Virus record (IMG/VR): IMGVR_UViG_3300021090_000078
Coordinates: 1 to 32,037 of that record
Source: a virus
Strand: one strand, 5' to 3'
DNA: 32,037 bases
The notes beneath the pieces are model-generated. The model did not search any database and was not told where the DNA came from. It worked only from the letters and a program-made list of their open reading frames with translations. Every line of letters begins with the position of its first letter. The first letter of the stretch is position 1. Positions 7,604 through 32,037 of this stretch are shown here, piece by piece. The translations under genes were made by a program, and so were the position numbers.

Positions 7604-7890
7604 GGAAAGATTTCCTCCGGTAGTAATTCGGCGCGTCCATCAAAATTTCCACATCGAACCAAAGGCCGTCCGGCCCTGCCACTCTGACGAGCGGTCATCC
7701 GGGCGGTAACACAGGGTCCCGCGAGTTCCGACGAACGCGCGGCCTGTTCGGGCGCTTCAGTTGTTCACGTGCCGTCTCTCGCCGGGGCCAATCCCTCCGC
7801 CGATCCGGTTCGCTGAGCGTGGTGAAGCCTCGAATAGGCCGCGCGTTTTTCATTTGGAACGAACGGGCCATTGTCAGGGAGCACACCGCA
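7604..7890. other. intergenic stretch before the capsid gene
   Basis: I see no convincing gene here. The frame of the capsid gene is open back to 7819, but the best start with a ribosome binding site is at 7891. A CAGGGAG site at 7875-7881 precedes that start. A promoter for the capsid genes might lie here, but I cannot point to one. Confidence 0.4.
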
Positions 7891-9558
7891 ATGGACCGAC
7901 TTCTCACCCGGCTGCCGTTTCTCGCCGCGTTCTTCATTGCCGTCGCGGCAATGCCCACCAACGTGGTGGTCGTGAACGCGCACCAGATGGGGACCGAACA
8001 CGCGCAGCCGTGGAGGGCCAAGGCGGTTCTCGGCCTCGGCCTAGCCGTCAACGCCCTGAAGAGTCGCTGCGTGGCGCTCATCGAGGCGACATGCGGGCAT
8101 CCCCTGCGAGGTCCCGCGTTGATGGGGGCCGCCGTGCTCGTGGCCGCCCTGGTGGCCCCGGAGCATTGTGGATACGCCATGGTCGGTGTCATGGGCTCGC
8201 TGAAGCTCTATCGCCAGCAGGCCGCCGACCTCCACACCGAACTGAAGACGAAAAAGAAAGAACGCGCGGCCATCGGCGATAAGGCCCTGAGCGAGAAGCG
8301 GGCCCTGAACGACAAGGAGCGTGCGGATTTCACGGCAAAGGGCGTCGAGATCGCCGTCATCGAAGCGCGCGTCGAGGACAACGCGATGCTCCTGAAGGCC
8401 GCGGAAGAGGCCAACGAGGCCGAGCGTGACCCGAAAGCGACGCCGGCGATCGCTGATGGTGACACCAAGGCGAGCGTCACGGCCGTCAGCCAGGTGCAGC
8501 TAGGCGCGAACCTGGCTGATAAGGATCCGAAGCGCGGGTTTGCCGATCATCGCGACTTCCTGTCCTCCGTGATGGCGGCCGGCCGCGGCAAGCGGATCGA
8601 TGCGCGCCTGAAGCCTCTGGCCACCCAGGGCTCCGACGAGCAGGGCGAATATAGCGACCCGGCGGGTGGCTTCCTCGTGCCCTCTGGTGTCGCGTCTGGC
8701 ATTCTCTCAATTGCGCCGGAGAATGACCCGCTCGACAGTCTGATCACGCACGTGCCCATGACGGCCCCGACCGTCGCGTTCAACGCGCGGGTCGACAAAA
8801 ACCACGCCACGAGCGTCAGCGGTGGCTTCACGGTGACGCGCCGGCCGGAGACGGTCGACGGCACGGCGAGCCGGGGCTCCTTCGAACAGGTCACGCTGGT
8901 CGCCAACGAGGAATTCGGCCTCGCCTTTGCCAGCGAGCGCATCATCAACGATTCGCCGACGTCCTTCGTGGCCATCATTCAGGCGGGCATGGCGAGCGAG
9001 TATGTCGCCAACGCGATGAACGAGCGCATCAACGGCTCGGGGACCGGCGAGCGGCAAGGCGCGCTCAACGCCGGCTGCAAGATTGCCGTCACCAAAGAAA
9101 CCAATCAGAACGCCGCGACGATCGTCAAGGAAAACATCGACAAGATGGCCGCTCGGTGCTACCGCTACAGCGGCGCCGTGTGGCTGGCCAATCACAACAC
9201 CCGTCCGCAGTTGAAGAGCCTCGTGCAGGTGGTCGGCACCGGTGGAAATGCGGTGCCCTACTTCACTGGCGTGCCCGGCGGTGCGGAATACCTCGACAAC
9301 CGTCCGCTCTTCTTCACCGAGTTCGCGAAGACGCTCGGCACCGAAGGGGACCTGATGCTGCTTGTGCCCTCCGAATACCTGGAAGGCACCTACCAGAGCG
9401 AACAGTACGCGGAATCCATTCACGTCCGCTTCGCGGCGGCCGAGCGGGGCTTCCGCTTCTATCGCCGCAACGATGGCCAATGGTGGTGGAGAAGTGCGCT
9501 GACGCCGAAGAACGGCAGCACGCTATCCCCCGTCGTCACGTTGGCCGCCCGCCCATAG
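7891..9558 (+). CDS. major capsid protein, HK97 fold, with hydrophobic N-terminal extension
   Basis: This 555-aa protein builds the icosahedral shell. From M101 (nt 8191) it looks like a standard HK97-type capsid: a Lys/Glu-rich coiled delta domain (residues ~107-190), a linker near LGANLADKDPKRGFADHRDF, then the SDPAGGFLVPSG entry to the mature shell domain, the TRRPE E-loop region, and a C-terminal FRFYRRNDGQWWW strand. The first 100 residues are unusual: two hydrophobic segments (FLAAFFIAVAA near 10-20 and GAAVLVAALVA near 79-89) and no stop before the delta domain. ATG 7891 has AGGGAG nine bases upstream; ATG 8191 has no clear site and would give 455 aa. GC-rich third positions suggest the extension is truly coding. 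Whether it is a fusion, a membrane-targeting arm, or a former separate gene is open. Confidence 0.9.
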   Translation: MDRLLTRLPFLAAFFIAVAAMPTNVVVVNAHQMGTEHAQPWRAKAVLGLGLAVNALKSRCVALIEATCGHPLRGPALMGAAVLVAALVAPEHCGYAMVGVMGSLKLYRQQAADLHTELKTKKKERAAIGDKALSEKRALNDKERADFTAKGVEIAVIEARVEDNAMLLKAAEEANEAERDPKATPAIADGDTKASVTAVSQVQLGANLADKDPKRGFADHRDFLSSVMAAGRGKRIDARLKPLATQGSDEQGEYSDPAGGFLVPSGVASGILSIAPENDPLDSLITHVPMTAPTVAFNARVDKNHATSVSGGFTVTRRPETVDGTASRGSFEQVTLVANEEFGLAFASERIINDSPTSFVAIIQAGMASEYVANAMNERINGSGTGERQGALNAGCKIAVTKETNQNAATIVKENIDKMAARCYRYSGAVWLANHNTRPQLKSLVQVVGTGGNAVPYFTGVPGGAEYLDNRPLFFTEFAKTLGTEGDLMLLVPSEYLEGTYQSEQYAESIHVRFAAAERGFRFYRRNDGQWWWRSALTPKNGSTLSPVVTLAARP

Positions 9559-22022: not shown

Positions 22023-22277
22023 ATGGGCATTCCGTTGTTCGACAACACGATTCACTTGAGCGACCTCCTGATCTTCGGCGGGGGCGTGCTGGCGTTTTTC
22101 AAGGTGTTCCTCAGCCTGCGTGACGAAATGCGCGACCTGCGCAAAGCGGTCGGAGGCGTGGATCCCCCTGAAGGTCTCGTGGGTGACGTGCATCACTTGA
22201 AGCGGGAGAGTCGCCAGCATCGAGAGTGGTTGATTCGGGCGGGCATTGACCAGCCCGTGAGCGAGGATCGGCGATGA
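22023..22277 (+). CDS. single-pass membrane protein with coiled coil
   Basis: This 84-aa protein begins directly after the hub stop. A hydrophobic helix (LLIFGGGVLAFFKVFLSL, residues ~15-32) is followed by a charged heptad-like stretch (RDEMRDLRKAV and DVHHLKRESRQHREWLI). The stop overlaps the start of the endolysin gene (ATGA at 22274-22277). A pinholin-like or inner-membrane spanin-like role is possible given its neighbour, but the sequence alone does not decide. Confidence 0.7.
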   Translation: MGIPLFDNTIHLSDLLIFGGGVLAFFKVFLSLRDEMRDLRKAVGGVDPPEGLVGDVHHLKRESRQHREWLIRAGIDQPVSEDRR

Positions 22278-22756
22278 CCGCGAGCTCACTCCCGAACGAT
22301 CTCGTGGCGGCGCTGACCGACCCGCAGATCCTCACGATCACGCTGTTCGGGGAGACCCGCGGCGAACCGATCGAGGGCCAGATCGCGGTCGGCTGCGTCA
22401 TCCGCAACCGGGTGCACAGCGGGCGCTGGGGCGGGTCTTACGCGAAGGTCTGTCTCGCCCCGTGGCAGTTCTCGTCCTGGCTGCCTCAAGGCGGTCGGGC
22501 AAACTACGAGCTGGTCATGGAGACCGCGCGGCAGATGGCGACGTCGACCCAGCTGCCGGACGATCCGCTGCTGCGACAATGCGCGTGGGTGTCGCAGGGC
22601 ATCATCGGCGCTTGGATCATCGACACCGTCAAGGACGCGACGCACTATTACGCGCCGGCCGCGATGGCACCCAAGGGGGCCGTGCCGAAGTGGGCCGTCG
22701 GCCGCACGCCCGTGGTCAGCAAAGGTCAACACCTGTTTTTTGTAGGAGTCGCGTGA
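22274..22756 (+). CDS. endolysin, SleB-like cell wall hydrolase
   Basis: This 160-aa protein has the SleB/CwlJ hydrolase pattern ITLFGETRGEPIEGQIAVGC, VIRNRVHSGRWG, and a CLAPWQFSSW motif (residues ~60-69). The glutamate in the GETRGE segment (E27) is the expected catalytic residue for cleaving the glycan strand of peptidoglycan. There is no signal peptide, so export would need a holin; small membrane proteins at 22023 and 25629 are candidates. It is the last gene before a strong terminator, consistent with the end of a late operon. Length is typical for a single-domain enzyme. Confidence 0.9.
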   Translation: MTASSLPNDLVAALTDPQILTITLFGETRGEPIEGQIAVGCVIRNRVHSGRWGGSYAKVCLAPWQFSSWLPQGGRANYELVMETARQMATSTQLPDDPLLRQCAWVSQGIIGAWIIDTVKDATHYYAPAAMAPKGAVPKWAVGRTPVVSKGQHLFFVGVA

Positions 22757-22953: not shown

Positions 22954-23310
22954 ATGATGACACACAACAAACGCGTCCACCTCTCTCTGTTGATACAGAC
23001 GCGCACGATCAACGTCGAGGGCCGCTTGATCGGCACGCGCGTCGTGCGGCAGCCGACCAAGCTGCACAGCGGCCCCAACCAGTGGTACGAGACGCTGAAG
23101 TCCAACCTCCGCAATCTCGGGTTCAAGGTCGACGACGTTGAGCCTTTGCCGGAGGTTTCCGAGCCGCCAGACGCCACGGCGGACGAGGTTGCCCATGCAC
23201 TGTGTCATGGCATCGACAGCGGGCTGGAGTCCGCGCCCGAGGACGCCCAGCGGGTTGCCGCGTGGCTTTTGCACCGCTACCGTCTCGTGGCGCGGGGTGA
23301 CGCCTCATGA
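22954..23310 (+). CDS. hypothetical protein
   Basis: This 118-aa protein starts at ATG 22954 or 22957, with a weak upstream site. It has an N-terminal beta region (VHLSLLIQTRTINVEGRLIG and TRVVRQPTKL), a WYETLKSNLRNLGF helix and a C-terminal helical part ending AWLLHRYRLVAR. Its stop overlaps the next start (ATGA at 23307-23310), linking it to the first glycosidase gene. I do not recognise the family. Confidence 0.7.
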   Translation: MMTHNKRVHLSLLIQTRTINVEGRLIGTRVVRQPTKLHSGPNQWYETLKSNLRNLGFKVDDVEPLPEVSEPPDATADEVAHALCHGIDSGLESAPEDAQRVAAWLLHRYRLVARGDAS

Positions 23311-24113
23311 TCCCCGCCGCCGCCGGCCTGCACTGTGGCTTTGGCGATTTCTTGGGCCCGGAGACCCTGACGCAGGTGCGGGAGGAACGTCTCACGATCC
23401 CGCGCATCACCGCCAACCGGCCGGATGCCACGCAGCACCATGCCGCCAATATGGCGAGTCCGGAACGCTGCCGCGATCTCGCGCAGGAAGTCGTCGACGC
23501 CGGCCTACAGCCGTTCCTGAGCGTGGTCCGGGCCGAGCAGGTCGCGCTCGTCCATCCCGGCACGCTCATCGAGGCCGGGAACGAGCCCGACATTGAGAAG
23601 TTCGGCTGGAGCAAGGCGACCTACCGCTCCGAGTTCTTACGCATCATCGAGGCGTGCGACCGCCGCGGCCTCAAATGCTATGGCCCCGCCATCAGCAACC
23701 TCCACAAGCGGGGGTTCGACTTCCTGCAGTCGATCCCGTGGTCGGCGATCCCGCTCCACGTCGGGTGCAGCTTCCACTGGTACCCGCACGGACACTCGCC
23801 GACGATCGGGCACGACGGCCGCACGCGCGAGGAAGAAGTCGCCAAGCTCCGGTCGATCGTCGGCCAGGGCCGCCCGCTCGCCGTCACCGAGATCGGGTAC
23901 CACCAACTCGAATGGGACGAGCAGGAGACCGCCGACAACATGGCCTGGGAGCGCCGCTTTTGGTCGGGGCAGGACATCGAGGTCGTGGTGATGTTTCAGA
24001 TCAACGATGGCGCCGCCGAGGACCGGAGCACCGACTCGCACTTCGGCGCCCGTGATCACACGGGCCGATGGAAACCCGCGGTCCGCGCGTTTGTCGACGC
24101 GCTGAATTTCTAA
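23307..24113 (+). CDS. clan GH-A-like glycoside hydrolase, 268 aa
   Basis: A TIM-barrel glycosidase candidate. LIEAGNEPDIEKFG carries N92-E93-P94, the standard acid/base glutamate after strand 4. CSFHWYPHG at 154-162 fits strand 6. PLAVTEIGYH carries E196, the expected nucleophile after strand 7, and VVVMFQINDG fits strand 8. This arrangement matches retaining clan A enzymes such as GH5/GH39-type folds; I cannot name the exact family or substrate. There is no signal peptide. Its place after the tail module suggests a virion-bound polysaccharide depolymerase, although a lysis role is possible. Confidence 0.75.
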   Translation: MIPAAAGLHCGFGDFLGPETLTQVREERLTIPRITANRPDATQHHAANMASPERCRDLAQEVVDAGLQPFLSVVRAEQVALVHPGTLIEAGNEPDIEKFGWSKATYRSEFLRIIEACDRRGLKCYGPAISNLHKRGFDFLQSIPWSAIPLHVGCSFHWYPHGHSPTIGHDGRTREEEVAKLRSIVGQGRPLAVTEIGYHQLEWDEQETADNMAWERRFWSGQDIEVVVMFQINDGAAEDRSTDSHFGARDHTGRWKPAVRAFVDALNF

Positions 24114-24123
24114 GGAGACCCCG

Positions 24124-25626
24124 ATGTCCTTCAACGCGCCGCCCCATGACCTCCTGCTCGACGTCCGGAACTGGCTCGGGGACCCGTCCTATCCGCACGG
24201 CGGCATCTACCCGCACTTCCTCCATGAGGACTTCGATCCGCTCGCCGCCGCGGTGTGGGTAGATGGCGTCTACGTCGAGCTGTGGCAGACGATGGGGCCC
24301 GAGAACGATCCGCTGGCGAAGCATCAGGCCATCAAGGACGAAATCTTCCGCCGCATAGAAGCGCAGAAGCGTGTGCGCGATGCCGCGAACCAGCCGGCGC
24401 CGGCGCCGACACCCGTCGGCCTGCCGATCCGCGGCGTGCTGCGCCTCGTCGATGGCGGCCGCGGCGGCCTGGCTGACGATCTCGGCCGGCGGATCTTCAC
24501 CGGCTGCCACGCGGGCGATCTGCTGTCTCGCTTTTATCGCTATCCCGATGCGGTGCGCGCGCACCTTGACACGATCTCGGCCGCCGGGTGTCAGTTTGTC
24601 CGCACGTGGACGATCCTCGACGGTCCATGGTGGGCCGAGCGCACCGGCGAGATCCATCCGGAGATGCCGGGCTACTGGCAGGCAGTGCACTTCTTCGCGC
24701 GCGAGCTCGTCACGCGCGGCTTGCGGTGGCTCGTCTCCCAGGGCGATGCCATGCGCCATTACCAGGGCGATGGCCAGCGGCGCTTTTTCATGCGCAACCT
24801 CGGGCTCACCCTCGGGGAGGAAGGCGGCATCGAGCGGCTGGTGATCGGCGTCGACGGCGGCAATGAGGCGTGGCAGATCGGCGAGCCCGATCCGGATCGC
24901 CTGGCGACGGCCCTGGCCGCGTTCCTCGAGGTCCTGCCGGTGCCGATCGCCTCGCTGACGTCGTGCGCCGACGAGGGCGAACTGAATCGCTACGCGCGGA
25001 CCCCGTCGACGGTGATCGACTACCACCTCTCGCGGATGCCGTTCCGCCACGCGATCGAGCGGTGCTTCACCGCCTCGTATTGGGACGGCAAGCTCTTGCC
25101 GTTCCTGGTGTCCTCGGAGCCGCCAGGCGGCGGGCCGCACGTGTCCGCGACCAACCACCCCGAGGAATGGCTCGACCTCGAAGTCACGGGCACGCTGGCG
25201 CTTGTGCACTACCTGACGAAGCAGCTCTATGTGCACATGAGTTCACCGGGTGTCATCAGCGACGAGCCGTTCGATCGGTATCCCGCGTTGGCGCAAGGGC
25301 CGAAGCTCGCCGCCATGCTGCCGGCGGACATCCAGTCGTGGCGGGCGTTTCACGGCGGGGAAGGGCGCGCGTCGAGTCCGGAGCGAATCCTCGCGGCGCC
25401 GCCCGGCAACTTCCGGTGTGACCACGTCAAGGCACCAGATGGACGCATCGCCTGCCTGGTCTACGTCGACGAGCCGTGCCACCTGGACCTCTTCGCCGTC
25501 AACGGCTTCGAGGGCGACGTCATCCACCCGGGCACGCTCGAGCGCGTGCCGTTCCAGTTCACCCAGGGCCAGCGCGTGCCGGTCGACCTGCGACGCGGCC
25601 GGCTCTTTCTCGGGAGGACGCGATAG
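24124..25626 (+). CDS. second TIM-barrel glycosidase-like protein, 500 aa
   Basis: A AAGGAGA site precedes the ATG. Residues 1-88 form a small N-terminal domain (LLLDVRNWLGDPSYPHGGIY, then AVWVDGVYVELWQT), followed by a Pro/Ala linker (91-99). The barrel has VRTWTILDGPWW (159-170), VIGVDGGNEAW with N247-E248 as possible acid/base, IDYHLSR (298-304) and LVSSEPPGGG with E332 as possible nucleophile. A C-terminal beta domain follows (ACLVYVDEPCHLDLFAVNGF). The order of acidic motifs matches clan GH-A. Together with the preceding gene it suggests two-step breakdown of host surface polysaccharide. The domain at the N-terminus may attach it to the virion. Confidence 0.7.
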   Translation: MSFNAPPHDLLLDVRNWLGDPSYPHGGIYPHFLHEDFDPLAAAVWVDGVYVELWQTMGPENDPLAKHQAIKDEIFRRIEAQKRVRDAANQPAPAPTPVGLPIRGVLRLVDGGRGGLADDLGRRIFTGCHAGDLLSRFYRYPDAVRAHLDTISAAGCQFVRTWTILDGPWWAERTGEIHPEMPGYWQAVHFFARELVTRGLRWLVSQGDAMRHYQGDGQRRFFMRNLGLTLGEEGGIERLVIGVDGGNEAWQIGEPDPDRLATALAAFLEVLPVPIASLTSCADEGELNRYARTPSTVIDYHLSRMPFRHAIERCFTASYWDGKLLPFLVSSEPPGGGPHVSATNHPEEWLDLEVTGTLALVHYLTKQLYVHMSSPGVISDEPFDRYPALAQGPKLAAMLPADIQSWRAFHGGEGRASSPERILAAPPGNFRCDHVKAPDGRIACLVYVDEPCHLDLFAVNGFEGDVIHPGTLERVPFQFTQGQRVPVDLRRGRLFLGRTR

Positions 25627-25628
25627 CT

Positions 25629-25973
25629 ATGGACCCGACGACTTTCTATATCGACCTGAAATCCATCGCCGGCATCGTCGCGCTGACGATTGTCATCGTC
25701 CAGGGCCTGAAGACCTGGTTCTCGAGCGTGCCCTTCCTGCAGCGCGCCCCGGTGGCGCTCTATGTCGTCCTGGTGTCGATGGGGCTCACGTTGTTTTCGC
25801 ATGACATCCTGCACTGGATTGCCGGCGATCGCTGGGAGCTGGCCCTGCAGGCCGTCGTCCAGGCACTCGTCGCCTCTGGAGTTGTCGAATGGTGGCGCGC
25901 CGGCGCCAAGCCGCTCGAGGATTCGAACAAGGCGCGCGAGGCACAGGACGCCGCTTTCACACGCAAGTTGTAA
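25629..25973 (+). CDS. holin-like membrane protein
   Basis: This 114-aa protein starts at ATG 25629 with GGGAGGA upstream. Hydrophobic segments lie at residues ~13-27 (IAGIVALTIVIVQGL) and ~40-57 (APVALYVVLVSMGLTLFS), with a third weaker one near 73-88. The C-terminus is charged (EDSNKAREAQDAAFTRKL). Size, two to three membrane helices and a hydrophilic tail fit class I or II holins, which release endolysin. The lipoprotein gene next to it would complete a lysis cassette. Confidence 0.65.
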   Translation: MDPTTFYIDLKSIAGIVALTIVIVQGLKTWFSSVPFLQRAPVALYVVLVSMGLTLFSHDILHWIAGDRWELALQAVVQALVASGVVEWWRAGAKPLEDSNKAREAQDAAFTRKL

Positions 25974-25991: not shown

Positions 25992-26450
25992 ATGAGATTA
26001 CGAACATTGATCGTTGTCACCCTCATCGCCGCGGCGGCCGCCTGTGCCAAGTTGCCGCCAAACACGAGTCCCGAAGCCTCGGTGGCGATTCGCGGGTCTC
26101 AGGTGATCGCCGCCTTGCGTGCCACGCTGCCGGCGCTCAAGCAAGCGACCTGTCAGCCTGGCGTCGCGCCACCCTGCGTGCCGCCGGGGGACATGGACAA
26201 GGTCGTCGGCCACATCCAGCAAGCCGCCAAGGTGTCCGAGCAGCTCGCCGTCGCGCTGCAGGCCGTCGACGCCGCCACGACCGCGGCCGACAAGCAGATC
26301 GGGATGGACAAGGCGCGCGCCTTGATCGTGTCCATTCAAGCCTCGCTGACCCAAGCCACCGTGTCGCCCAGCGCCGAGGCCGGGCGCCAACAAATCGTCT
26401 CGCTGCTCGGCAGCGTCACCAGCCTGCTGTTCGTGATTTCAGCCTTCTAG
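25992..26450 (+). CDS. lipoprotein, possible outer-membrane spanin
   Basis: This 152-aa protein has an AAAGGAG site and a lipoprotein signal: a basic MRLR, hydrophobic core TLIVVTLIAAAAA and lipobox ending AAAC with C18 as the acylated residue. The mature part is helical with Gln/Ala-rich stretches (HIQQAAKVSEQLAVALQAVD) suited to coiled coils. Position after a holin-like gene suggests an outer-membrane lysis lipoprotein, but the length is greater than usual for such spanins. Two cysteines at ~54 and ~61 may form a disulfide. Confidence 0.7.
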   Translation: MRLRTLIVVTLIAAAAACAKLPPNTSPEASVAIRGSQVIAALRATLPALKQATCQPGVAPPCVPPGDMDKVVGHIQQAAKVSEQLAVALQAVDAATTAADKQIGMDKARALIVSIQASLTQATVSPSAEAGRQQIVSLLGSVTSLLFVISAF

Positions 26451-26461
26451 GAGAACCGTTC

Positions 26462-27076
26462 ATGAATGTCAACGTCACCACCATCAACTCCATCATCGGC
26501 ATCGCCGTTCAGGCGATGACCGCGGCGCGCGTCGCCCGCGACGCCGCACGCGCGGCCAACCCGACGGCGCCAGACGGATCGCTGCCGAGCGATGGCGAAC
26601 TCATCGAGAAGTTTCTGACCGACGCCAAGCTGCTCGAGCAGGAAGCCACGGACCTGCGCGCGTGGTTGAAGACGCTGCCGGTGCTGTTTCTTCTCGTCCT
26701 GATGCCATCGATCGCCTTCGCGCAGCATCTCAACATCTACACGCTGCCCCATGCCGTCGGGGCCACCCCGATCACGGAAGCGGAGTTTTCACCCGCCGCG
26801 GTCAACTGCAACCAGTTGCCGCCCCCGCCGACGGCCAGCACCATCAATCCGACGCGGGTGACCTGGGACGATCCCGCCGTCGCGGGTCGCGTCTGTCAGT
26901 GGACCGATGCCACAGGCGGTCCATTACTCGGCCTGCCGATTGGGCCGTATGAAGCCACGCTCCAGTTCACGAACATGGTCGGCCGAGGTCCGGAGTCGCC
27001 AGTCGCCCCTTTTTCGCGGCTGAGCCCGCCCACGACTGCCCCGGCGGGACTCAAGTTGACACGGCCCGGATCGTAG
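26462..27076 (+). CDS. hypothetical protein with internal signal peptide-like segment
   Basis: This 204-aa ORF starts at ATG 26462 with AGGAGA upstream. The first 68 residues are helical and soluble-like (INSIIGIAVQAMTAARVARD, DAKLLEQEATDLRAW). From residue 69 comes KTLPVLFLLVLMPSIAFAQH, a textbook Sec signal with an AFA cleavage site, followed by a beta-rich domain (TRVTWDDPAVAGRVCQWTDA). The codon just before is TTG (26666), which can act as a start and would give a normal secreted protein of 136 aa. Either one protein has a mid-chain membrane segment, or two products come from nested starts. Confidence 0.65.
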   Translation: MNVNVTTINSIIGIAVQAMTAARVARDAARAANPTAPDGSLPSDGELIEKFLTDAKLLEQEATDLRAWLKTLPVLFLLVLMPSIAFAQHLNIYTLPHAVGATPITEAEFSPAAVNCNQLPPPPTASTINPTRVTWDDPAVAGRVCQWTDATGGPLLGLPIGPYEATLQFTNMVGRGPESPVAPFSRLSPPTTAPAGLKLTRPGS

Positions 27077-27165
27077 GGTCGTTGGGGGTGTTGGGAATGA
27101 TTGATCTGACGATCGTGCGTTGTCGAGTAGGGAATTGACCATAGGTTGAAATTGAGGAGCGAGCG

Positions 27166-30102
27166 ATGATGACCCGAATCCGAACCTGTTTCTTGCTGAT
27201 CGCGTTGTGCGTCGTCGGCGCGTGGCCGGCACAGGCGCAGGTGTTGACCGGCTCGCCAAAGACGATTACATCCTCAAGCGCGAGTTGCCTGACGGCCAAC
27301 TGCCTTGAGGTCTCCACCATCGGCGTCCTTGCGATCGGGATCAACGTCGAAGGCAGTGGCACGTACACGCTGCAAATCGAGGGCTCGAAAAACACCGGAA
27401 CGACATGGTATGCCCTGAACGCCGTCGACGAGAGCGGACCGTCCGCGCTGGTGACCAGCATCAGCGCTGCCGGCAACTTCTCGACGACGAACCTTGGCAT
27501 CACAAACCTGCGCATCCGCGCCTCCGCCCTGTCGGCCGGGACGCCCGTGGTGACGTTGACGCGCGGGTCGTTGCCGCCCTTGACGACGCTGGGCGGAACG
27601 GGCAGCGCGGGCACGGAGTATACCGAGAGCGCGACCGACGCGTCGATTACTGGCGTGGCAGCGATGATGGAAGGCGCGGCGAACACGTTGCTGCCGATTC
27701 AGGGCACCGTCCTAGATGGCCTGCTGGTGAACTTGGGCGCGAATAATGACGTCACGGTCACGAGCGGCAGTCTCACCGCGAACGCGGGCACGAACCTGAA
27801 CACGTCGCTGTTGGCGTTGGAGTCCGGCGGGAACTTGGATGCCATCGCCGCGTCACTGGCGGCTCTTGACAATACCGTCGCCGGCACTGAACTCCAGGTC
27901 GATGTCCTCACCATGCCAACCGTAACGGTCACGGGTACGGTGACGGCCAATCTGTCTGCCGTTGACAATGCCGTGCTGGATGACATCGCAGACGGGATCG
28001 CCGTGTCGTGTTCAAACTGCACGGGGTCAGGCGCCAGCGATGTGGAGGGCTCCACCTTCGCCCTCGGTACGGATTCAGTCGCGCCGGCTGGGTTCTACTT
28101 CGACGACGTCGCGCCGACGGCCGCGACCGAAGACCGGATCGTGCTGCCACGCGTGTCTGGCAATCGCAATATGTATTCGCAGATTCGTGACGGCGCCGGC
28201 AACGAGCGCGGCGCGATCGTCACGGCGAACAATGAACTGCTCGTCGAGCTCGGCGCCGGCGCGGCATCGATCGGCACGCTCGGTGCCAACAGCGGCGTGG
28301 ACATCGGCGACGTGACCCTAACCGCAGGGGCGGCCGACATCGGGAACGTGAATCTCGAGATCGGTGGCACGGCGATCACGGCGGGTGTCGGCGCGGTGGC
28401 GGCGACGACGCCCCGGATGACGCTGGCGAGCGACGATCCAGCCGTGACGTCGCTCAGCGCGATTGCGGCATCCGTGGATACAGTCGAAACGATCATCGGC
28501 ACCACGAACAGCAGCCTGACGACAATTGACGGGCGCGTTGATGGACTCGAAACCTTACTCGGCACGACCAACACGAGTCTGGCGATCATCGACAATATCG
28601 TCTTCGGCCCTGGCACCGAAGCGGCGGCCGTGCGCGTGACCCTAGCGACAGACAGCACGGGCGTCATCAGCATCGACGATAACGGCGGGGCGATCACCGT
28701 TGACGGATCGATCAGTTGCTCGAACTGCACGGGTTCAGGCGCCAGCGGGGTCGACGACGGCGCCTTCGCGATTGCCACCGACTCTGTGGCGCCGGCGGGC
28801 TTCCTCTTCGACGATGTGGCGCCAGATAGCGTGGATGAGGGTGACGTCGGATTGGCGCGCATGTCCGCGAACCGCGTGCCCTACAGCACGATCCGGGATG
28901 CCGCCGGGAACGAGCGCGGCGCGAATGTCAACGCCAGTAACCAACTCACGATTGCGGGGCCCGTGACCAATGCGGGCACTTTCGCCGTTCAGGTCGACGG
29001 GGCGGCCCTGAGCTCGCTCCAGATTATCGACAATATGGTGTTCGGCGCCGGCACGGCCGCGGCGGCTCAGCGCACGACGCTGGCGAGCGACGATCCCGCT
29101 GTGGCGCTCTTGACCACGATTGACGCGGACACGGGCAACCTGGCGGCTATCGCGGCTTCCCTGAGCGTGTTGGATGACACGGGCGCCGAGACGGCCGACG
29201 AATACCTCACCGTGCGTCTGACGGACGGCACCAGCTTCCTGAGCTTGGGGGCAGACTGGACGGTTGGCACGGCCATCGGCACCGGGGCTCCGGGTAACGT
29301 CGCCGTCTACAGCGACTTCGATGGCGCGGCCTTACCCACGATCACCAACGTCGACACCGAAGGCGAGGCCGTCCCAATTGCGGCCAGCATCAAGGGCGTG
29401 CAGTACATGATGCTCGTAAGCGAGGACGGCTCGCTGCAGTACGGCACGGCGACGACACCCCTCGTGGTGGGCGACGGGTCCGGCGTCTTCAACGTGATCG
29501 TCGACAGCATCACGGGGTTTCCAGACAATGAGCCGTTCAATGTGGCCCAGATCAACGGCGTGACCGTGCTGATGGGGAACGGCGCGACGGGCACCGGGTC
29601 GCAACGCGTGACACTCGCGAACGACAACACGATCCCAACGGGCTGGCCAACGGCGGCGAATCAGACCACTGAGCTTGGCTACCTGGACGGCGTCGAAGGG
29701 CTGATCGGCACGACGAACACCAACACCGGCAACGTGGCCACCGCAGTTGCGGCCTCCACTACGCTCTATCGCACGAGTGCTGGTACCACCGAGGATGAAT
29801 GGGAAATCAAAGCCACCGCGGGCGTGTTCACCGGCGGACTGGTAACGAACACGGCGGCGACGGTGAGCTACTTGAAATGCTACAACTTGACGGCGGCCAA
29901 CACGACACCAGGCACGAGCGCGGTCTTTTTCGCCGCCGCCATTCCGGCCCAGACCATCGGCGCCGGATTCAACATTCCCATTCCTCCGGGCGGAGTGACG
30001 TTTTCGACGGCCTTCACCTGTACATTCGTGAAGGGCGCGGCGGATACCGATGTCGCGGAAGTAGGGGCCAATGAAATCAAAGCGAATTTGTATTTCAGGT
30101 AG
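27166..30102 (+). CDS. large exported repeat protein, 978 aa
   Basis: A GAGGAG site precedes ATG ATG. Residues 1-24 are a Sec signal peptide (hydrophobic CFLLIALCVVGAW and AQA cleavage site). The mature part is Thr/Ala/Gly/Asp-rich and beta-repetitive. It includes two long copies about 235 residues apart, each starting with a SCSNCTGSGAS motif (~280 and ~515), then FDDVAP and a (G/A)xxNERGA turn. Shorter units such as IIDN(I/M)VFG(P/A)GT and (M/T)TLASDDPAV recur. Such repeats resemble those of large phage virion fiber proteins seen in environmental phages, but a signal peptide is unusual for a virion component. Function unknown; an adhesin is likely. Confidence 0.75.
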   Translation: MMTRIRTCFLLIALCVVGAWPAQAQVLTGSPKTITSSSASCLTANCLEVSTIGVLAIGINVEGSGTYTLQIEGSKNTGTTWYALNAVDESGPSALVTSISAAGNFSTTNLGITNLRIRASALSAGTPVVTLTRGSLPPLTTLGGTGSAGTEYTESATDASITGVAAMMEGAANTLLPIQGTVLDGLLVNLGANNDVTVTSGSLTANAGTNLNTSLLALESGGNLDAIAASLAALDNTVAGTELQVDVLTMPTVTVTGTVTANLSAVDNAVLDDIADGIAVSCSNCTGSGASDVEGSTFALGTDSVAPAGFYFDDVAPTAATEDRIVLPRVSGNRNMYSQIRDGAGNERGAIVTANNELLVELGAGAASIGTLGANSGVDIGDVTLTAGAADIGNVNLEIGGTAITAGVGAVAATTPRMTLASDDPAVTSLSAIAASVDTVETIIGTTNSSLTTIDGRVDGLETLLGTTNTSLAIIDNIVFGPGTEAAAVRVTLATDSTGVISIDDNGGAITVDGSISCSNCTGSGASGVDDGAFAIATDSVAPAGFLFDDVAPDSVDEGDVGLARMSANRVPYSTIRDAAGNERGANVNASNQLTIAGPVTNAGTFAVQVDGAALSSLQIIDNMVFGAGTAAAAQRTTLASDDPAVALLTTIDADTGNLAAIAASLSVLDDTGAETADEYLTVRLTDGTSFLSLGADWTVGTAIGTGAPGNVAVYSDFDGAALPTITNVDTEGEAVPIAASIKGVQYMMLVSEDGSLQYGTATTPLVVGDGSGVFNVIVDSITGFPDNEPFNVAQINGVTVLMGNGATGTGSQRVTLANDNTIPTGWPTAANQTTELGYLDGVEGLIGTTNTNTGNVATAVAASTTLYRTSAGTTEDEWEIKATAGVFTGGLVTNTAATVSYLKCYNLTAANTTPGTSAVFFAAAIPAQTIGAGFNIPIPPGGVTFSTAFTCTFVKGAADTDVAEVGANEIKANLYFR

Positions 30103-30106
30103 GTCC

Positions 30107-30886
30107 ATGATGCGTGGCTGGATCGGTCGAATCTGTCTCACTGTGGCCCTTGTGGGCACGGCCTCAATGGCCCAGGCGCAAGTCGTGTTCGATGCCTGCA
30201 CGGAGTCGCACACCGGCGGCACCGGGTCAGCGAGTGAAGCCTCGTTCACCTGGAACCATGATCCCGTGGGGGCCCCGCGGGGCCTCATCATCTGGACGAT
30301 GGTCTTGACCAATAGCACGGATCTCGCGGGCACGGTGACCTATGACGGCACGACCATTCCCCCACTCACGGGCGGGGCTGCGGTGGACATCAACGGCGAA
30401 GCACTCCATCTTAAAGCCTATTTTCTCGGGTCGAATGTCCCCGCCACAGATCCGGCTGCGGTCGTGATCAACCGGACCAACAACGCCGACGTGATGTACG
30501 CCGTCGCCTGCACGGTGACTGCCGGCGGCGATACCGAAACCAACGGCATCGTGCTCTTGCAGGAGGATCAATCACTGGCGGAACAGTCAGTAGATGACGG
30601 ATCACCCGGTACCAATAGTGTGCGGTTCGCGGGCATTGCTTCCGGCATAGGCAACGCTCCACCCACCGTCGGGGCGGCGTCCACGCTCGGGCAAGAGATT
30701 GACATCGGTGGACAAACGGCATCGGTGGTGCGCGAAACGACGGCTGGACAGGGCGCGCGGTCTGTCGGGTGGACGGAGGCGGCACCGGATGACGTCGCGG
30801 CGGTGCATCTCGCGATTCGCCAGGTGGCGGCGGCTGGTGGCGTCATCAAGCAATTGCTGCTGATGGGGGTCGGTCCACAGTGGTAA
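30107..30886 (+). CDS. exported beta-sandwich protein
   Basis: This 259-aa protein starts at ATG 30107 (or 30110). Residues 1-24 are a signal peptide with TVALVGTASM core and AQA cleavage site. The mature part has PRGLIIWTMVL, GTVTYDGTTIPPL, LKAYFLGSNVPATDP and a strand region with VMYAVACTVTAGG. The same motif order (R/L-rich strand, VTYxG, YxL..P, VVV) occurs in residues 1-205 of the tail hub protein, so the two domains are probably homologous. It may be a secreted or surface-displayed version of the phage adhesin domain. Confidence 0.7.
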   Translation: MMRGWIGRICLTVALVGTASMAQAQVVFDACTESHTGGTGSASEASFTWNHDPVGAPRGLIIWTMVLTNSTDLAGTVTYDGTTIPPLTGGAAVDINGEALHLKAYFLGSNVPATDPAAVVINRTNNADVMYAVACTVTAGGDTETNGIVLLQEDQSLAEQSVDDGSPGTNSVRFAGIASGIGNAPPTVGAASTLGQEIDIGGQTASVVRETTAGQGARSVGWTEAAPDDVAAVHLAIRQVAAAGGVIKQLLLMGVGPQW

Positions 30887-32037
30887 GGCGAAGTCTGATC
30901 ACGCTCGTGATCTTGCTCGGGCTCGCCGGGAGCGCCGATGCTGCGAACAAGTGCGTGAATCCCGCAGCGAGTGGCGACGACACCACAAGTTACGCGGCCA
31001 ACAACGGGACGACGGTCTGCTGGGATACGCTGGGTCGCGCGGTTTGGGGGAATGCCTCCCGCAGTGCGCCCGATGCCACCGAAGCCGCCAAGGCGGGCGA
31101 TACGGTGCTCGTGACCGGTGGCACCTACCATTCCGACGCGACGACAGGCGTCAACTCGACTCCACTCTACAATCCTGCGGGCACCGGCACTGCCGGGAAC
31201 TACATCACGTTCACGTGCGTGGGCACCTGCACGATTGAGGCGCCCGTGGCCCGTGGCCCGGCCATTGGGGCCGACGGCAAGGACTACATCAAGTGGTATG
31301 CGGATGTCACGCTGGGCTACTCCTGGACGATGGTGTCCGACGCGGCTGGCGGCAACACCGCGGATACGAGTGCGAACTCAACTTGGGTGAACGTCAAGCC
31401 GGATACCGGCCCGGTCGTGCTCAACAACACGACCGGCTCCTGGCTCGAAGGGCTCATCCTTGATGGCGGGGCGCAGCAGGAGCAGGAAGACAACTACCCA
31501 GGGATCGAGCTGGAAAACTGCACGTCCTGTGTCGTGCGCAACAATGTCATCTTTGGATTTCAGTGCGCCTCCGGGAACCACAACGGCGCGGGCATCATGC
31601 TCTACTCGGCGGCCGACCCGATCATCGAGCACAATCTGTTCTACGGGTCTGGCGTCTCGATCTACATCAAGGGCGAGACGACCTTTGCGCAGACCGGCGT
31701 CATCTTCCGCTACAACCTGATCACGAGCTGCCTCGCCGCCAACTCCGGCTGCATCTTCGTCTACATTTCCAATGCGGCCCGGATCTACCAGAACATCATC
31801 TCGGGCGGTCCCGCCTGCATCGAATTTGGCGGGCTGGACGCGGTGAATGCCTCGGACGCGGACTGGGCGTTCAATAACACCTGCATCTCGCCTTCAGTGG
31901 CCGGCATCCTCTACAACGGCAGCACGACGCCGCCGTGGTTCTCTGGCGGGCGTGCTTGGAACACCATCGTCTACAACGCGCCGACGGTGATCCTCTGGGC
32001 GGATTCGACCTTTCAGGTCGATACGTATCTCGACTAC
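30880..32037 (+). CDS. exported beta-helix protein, partial
   Basis: This gene runs open to the window end (386 codons). GTG 30880 lies seven bases inside the previous gene and is followed by a signal peptide (VRRSLITLVILLGLAGSADA with ADA cleavage). The mature part reads as a right-handed parallel beta-helix: ELENCTSCVVRNNVIFGF, ADPIIEHNLFYGSG, GVIFRYNLITSC and ARIYQNIISGG are successive rungs with Asn and aromatic ladders. Such folds occur in polysaccharide lyases and phage tailspikes. Catalytic residues cannot be assigned from the visible part. Confidence 0.75.
   Translation, partial: MVRRSLITLVILLGLAGSADAANKCVNPAASGDDTTSYAANNGTTVCWDTLGRAVWGNASRSAPDATEAAKAGDTVLVTGGTYHSDATTGVNSTPLYNPAGTGTAGNYITFTCVGTCTIEAPVARGPAIGADGKDYIKWYADVTLGYSWTMVSDAAGGNTADTSANSTWVNVKPDTGPVVLNNTTGSWLEGLILDGGAQQEQEDNYPGIELENCTSCVVRNNVIFGFQCASGNHNGAGIMLYSAADPIIEHNLFYGSGVSIYIKGETTFAQTGVIFRYNLITSCLAANSGCIFVYISNAARIYQNIISGGPACIEFGGLDAVNASDADWAFNNTCISPSVAGILYNGSTTPPWFSGGRAWNTIVYNAPTVILWADSTFQVDTYLDY

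Follow-up and report, generated by a model that had tools for sequence, protein, structure and literature searches.

The late operon of the tailed phage analysed here ends in three adjacent genes with clean Sec signal peptides (27166-30102, 30107-30886, and 30880 to the end of the record), whose products, a fibre, a sugar-binding, and a beta-helix protein, are, judged from sequence, probably sent out of the cytoplasm, folded with disulfides, and not built into the virion in the usual way. Tail adhesins are thought to assemble in the cytoplasm. Export of a module of tail-adhesin type that appears widespread among tailed phages is well supported by signal prediction and cysteine pairing, and on balance we favour reading the genes as an exported version of this module, which would be produced late in infection and would target sugars of the envelope or matrix away from the virion.

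Genes with export signals at the end of the late operon

The window, i.e., the whole stretch of DNA that was analysed (32,037 nucleotides), is the entire linear 32-kb IMG/VR record of the phage and carries, in this order, genes for TerL, portal, head protease, coat, tail, and a tape-measure-like protein. The endolysin-like gene (22274-22756) is followed by two larger ORFs, a holin-like gene (25629-25973, called by eye), a lipoprotein gene, and the fibre, beta-sandwich, and beta-helix genes. The two larger ORFs (23307-25626) bear no signal, appeared glycoside hydrolase-like by eye (the first has NEP and TEIG motifs), and had no significant match in Pfam or PHROG.

The initial annotation had described a run of consecutive Sec- or lipoprotein-exported genes beginning with the lipoprotein. 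This held for the genes starting at 27166, 30107, and 30880, each of which has an n-, h-, and c-region and an A-x-A type cleavage site at its true start, and needed correction for the first two members of the run. The lipoprotein (25992-26450, + strand) is a candidate u-spanin of the lysis cassette based on sequence and hydrophobicity: a lipobox (AAAAAC) is combined with a hydrophobic, candidate transmembrane segment at the C-terminus (IVSLLGSVTSLLFVISAF), and searches of Pfam and PHROG returned no significant match. Because of this u-spanin layout and its position behind the holin-like gene, it was assigned to lysis and is most likely a u-spanin outside the exported adhesin set. The subsequent 204-aa ORF (26462-27076, + strand) has no N-terminal signal and only a mid-chain, signal-peptide-like segment, which becomes N-terminal from an internal in-frame TTG at 26666; the resulting protein of 136 aa would carry the signal MKTLPVLFLLVLMPSIAFA with cleavage before QHLN and two cysteines in its mature part. 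Since the ribosome binding site (RBS) of this TTG is weak, both a second gene starting there and a membrane-anchored fusion were retained as readings. No homologue of this ORF was found among the phage records searched.

The fibre gene (27166-30102, + strand, ATG start, good RBS) encodes a 978-aa fibre-repeat protein, for which the signal scorer placed the signal peptide MMTRIRTCFLLIALCVVGAWPAQA at 27166-27237 with cleavage before QVLTG. The protein is composed of phage fibre repeats with the motifs FPDNEPxNVAQxNG and RDAAGNxRGANV, and its mature part has 8 cysteines including C-x2-C pairs (SCSNCTGSG, two copies).

For the beta-sandwich gene (30107-30886, + strand; 259 aa), the start at 30071 given in the first reading was wrong, and the correct start is the ATG at 30107. 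Its Sec signal peptide (MMRGWIGRICLTVALVGTASMAQA, 30107-30178, + strand) has its predicted cleavage site before QVVF, while the scorer cuts two residues earlier, after ...SMA. An AlphaFold2 model (15 sequences, pLDDT 60) showed the helix of the signal peptide followed by an all-beta structure, the C-terminal tail being modelled at low confidence. This model matched entries in BFVD at a TM of about 0.5-0.6, namely uncharacterised phage proteins and annotated minor tail proteins, these targets being predicted structures named by annotation; a fold search of the PDB gave no match at an E-value of 0.001 or better. The protein ends in a conserved LLxGVG motif (LLLMGVGPQW, 30854-30883, + strand) that is common to otherwise divergent cassette partners and possibly serves as a docking motif.

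The beta-helix gene (30880-32037, + strand) has a GTG start and its frame is interrupted by the end of the record. It matched Pfam Beta_helix/NosD (about 8e-7), indicating a right-handed beta-helix, and begins with the Sec signal peptide MVRRSLITLVILLGLAGSADA (30880-30942, + strand; cleavage before ANKC). The adhesin-like folds proposed initially were thus supported for the gene set, by fibre repeats (27166), a predicted all-beta structure (30107-30886), and the Pfam match (30880).

Signal peptides and cysteine pairing in fibre relatives

A DNA search of the phage collection detected no relative of the last 10 kb of the window, and querying IMG/VR with individual proteins (fibre, beta-sandwich, beta-helix, two more window genes, and P0005) likewise found none. 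An alignment (A1) of the FPDNEPxNVAQxNG motif, which is common to the window fibre and P0003 of a Manatee Spring podovirus (MW202554, locus L004), was used against IMG/VR and yielded 80 loci; a scan of genome contigs gave only two, both in MAGs. Signal peptides were called not by SignalP but by a home-made rule-based scorer, which had been tried out on 12 established signal peptides of bacteria. By scorer only, 37 distinct fibres were called exported and 29 were not; the window itself and three phage records with annotation belong to this set. Among 72 distinct intact fibre relatives, a signal peptide was present in 47 and absent in 25, ten of the 47 having been added by eye after cysteine counts had been seen; because these counts were known beforehand, scorer-only and eye-corrected versions are both given. 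Signal-bearing, fibre-like genes, which the first reading had suggested looking for in other phages, are thus present there. Chance signal peptides were rejected as an explanation, since the same scorer found a signal in only 5 of 304 non-fibre genes of loci with a signal-less fibre homologue. In exported-fibre loci, 52 of 441 non-fibre genes had a signal peptide, and the gene that follows an exported fibre often has one.

Paired cysteines are typical of proteins folded outside the cytoplasm. Exported fibres contained 11.2 cysteines per 1000 residues vs. 1.5 in signal-less homologues (47 vs. 25 proteins), and even, odd, and zero counts were distributed 43/3/1 among exported and 5/12/8 among signal-less proteins (Fisher p 8e-7), i.e., 43/46 and 5/17 even among cysteine-bearing proteins; the fibre proteins are not fully independent in this comparison, because cysteine motifs recur in related repeats. 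In the scorer-only classes (37 vs. 29), counts were even in 92% vs. 38%. Signal-less genes in the same loci had no even bias (61/75 and 53/83), and neighbouring exported genes had a weaker one (23 even, 15 odd, 4 zero). For a second test with a different motif (A8; 10 exported, 37 not), the scorer alone was used and the prediction was written beforehand. Counts were even in 9 of 9 complete exported proteins, with 11.1 vs. 3.0 cysteines per 1000 residues; three proteins scored as non-exported (L088, L119, L128), which by eye look like missed signal peptides, also had even counts. As paired cysteines track the signal peptide, export of the fibres is independently backed. The paired-cysteine signature is also a simple sequence test for phage proteins working outside the cytoplasm.

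In diverse tailed phages, the late strand carries grouped genes for a fibre-repeat protein and an LLxGVG beta-sandwich, frequently joined by a beta-helix gene; their signals are of the signal peptidase I type. In MW202554, fibre and lectin-like genes likewise begin with signal peptides, and the exported fibre of L013 is 42% identical to the window fibre over the alignment. The window beta-helix has a signal-bearing homologue beside the exported fibre of L135 (33% over 354 aa, E-value 2e-41). LLxGVG partners keep the C-terminal end and are otherwise about 13-22% identical to the window beta-sandwich; partner and fibre shared their export state (21 and 8 loci), part of the partner signals being judged by a relaxed rule or by eye. 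LLxGVG C-termini were seen on beta-sandwich proteins with and without signals (window 30854-30883; L003, L029, L036, L040), and in most signal-less forms GVG is the very end of the protein. KGLGLF is the C-terminus of some beta-helix partners. In L113, a signal-less homologue of the window beta-sandwich lies beside a signal-less fibre; L013 has an additional LLxGVG gene with a cut 5' end and no signal seen. Cultured Synechococcus phage S-SRP01 has a related domain without a signal peptide, a point against the favoured reading.

Function of the module and competing readings

We infer the function of the exported proteins to lie among a released adhesin or depolymerase, later virion attachment, and a cell coat. 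The signal peptide argues against cytoplasmic incorporation as a virion tail fibre. According to the reading we favour, the host Sec machinery would move the module proteins to the periplasm, where they would fold, form disulfides, and assemble; released at or before lysis, they would serve away from the virion as adhesins and depolymerases for sugars of the envelope or matrix, e.g., by clearing matrix or by masking receptors on debris and neighbouring cells. Export to the periplasm alone would keep the proteins inside until lysis, which counts against this off-virion action. The earlier suggestion of a secreted depolymerase is plausible for the beta-helix gene, whose equivalent in MW202554 matches glycosyl hydrolase family 28; for the window gene itself, the match concerns the fold.

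Exported fibres might instead acquire their disulfides while folding in the periplasm and bind to virions once lysis has set these free, possibly via LLxGVG. The same module and LLxGVG tail also occur without signals in phage genomes, and the beta-sandwich model matches annotated minor tail proteins; however, exported fibres lack the MADNxxL...ATDD-type N-terminus of many signal-less homologues, the docking site is only putative, and L013 has same-kind genes without signal peptides directly upstream of its exported set, so that we regard this route as unlikely. In L013 (1131-4503) and L135 (3825-4307), MADN-type signal-less genes precede an exported fibre encoded on the same strand.

A coat on the lysogen that alters attachment or blocks superinfection, as raised in the initial annotation, is improbable. 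There are precedents for phage proteins that reach cell surfaces (PblA/PblB, PMC9917116), and some records encode an integrase, 7 of the 19 above 40 kb. Overall, an integrase was detected in 8 of 45 records, many of which are fragments, and in all 27 records compared for gene layout fibre and TerL shared a strand (the fibre being downstream in 24), with module genes near portal or coat genes in several loci; because of this late-strand location and the few integrases, a lysogen coat is disfavoured as the general case. TerL was found in 29 of the 45 records (three PHROG models/families) and portal in 10, and nearby genes had matches in many families of terminase, portal, and coat proteins; non-phage contigs were rejected as a source of the loci based on TerL.

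A reading of the N-termini as hydrophobic parts of virion proteins, or as propeptides removed by a prohead protease, is very improbable. For it, PMC10367356 explains predicted signals on phage major capsid proteins by prohead protease cleavage, and the window's own capsid ORF has a hydrophobic N-terminus; against it stand the positive n-region, hydrophobic core, A-x-A type sites, Q at +1 in 21/37 fibres (where A, Q, D, or E receive a slight scoring preference), and cysteine pairing that follows signal presence.

The favoured reading of an exported, off-virion module can be widened, tentatively, to many tailed phages having both a cytoplasmic virion adhesin version and a Sec-exported, disulfide-bonded off-virion version, with export state as an evolvable switch. 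If such a common exported class were true, many phages would condition the cell surface or surroundings with dedicated proteins during infection.

Comparison with known systems

A literature search largely confined to non-subscription journals returned no account of the class itself; the precedents include the signal-peptide genes of Porphyromonas phages. Lom of phage lambda is a Sec-exported outer-membrane beta-barrel encoded beside tail genes; it resembles the window genes in export and neighbourhood and differs in being a beta-barrel without a fibre/lectin/beta-helix module. PblA and PblB of a temperate Streptococcus mitis phage (SM1, named SF100 in PMC9917116) are of tail origin and are not known to carry a signal peptide. 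They are freed by lysis of some cells and bind the remaining ones (PMC9917116). Like the window module, they are phage proteins acting as adhesins at cell surfaces, but they depend on lysis for release and belong to a Gram-positive host. Tail-spike depolymerases spread from plaques and affect neighbouring cells independently of the virion (PMC9917116), similar to the proposed module in sugar-degrading tail-spike type and off-virion action; free tail spikes are structural proteins made in excess that lack a dedicated export signal, whereas the window module has export signals.

Porphyromonas gingivalis phages (proposed Nixviridae) have five signal-peptide genes of unknown function, which share with the genes described here Sec signals in tailed phages and many cleavage sites with Q at +1 (PMC10367356); Q at this position after cleavage is the Bacteroidetes Q-rule (PMC5837995). 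In the section that describes these genes, neither a fibre/beta-sandwich/beta-helix cassette nor cysteine pairing nor a distribution over several phage lineages is mentioned (PMC10367356).

Additionally, the PHROG match of the major-capsid ORF of the window (7819-9558) starts at residue 128, behind a long N-terminal stretch with hydrophobic segments that may stem from a misplaced start or belong to an atypical prohead domain. Exported proteins in L135 (7956-9575) and L047 (6619-7785) end in a hydrophobic stretch and an arginine/lysine cluster, recalling C-terminal sorting tails.
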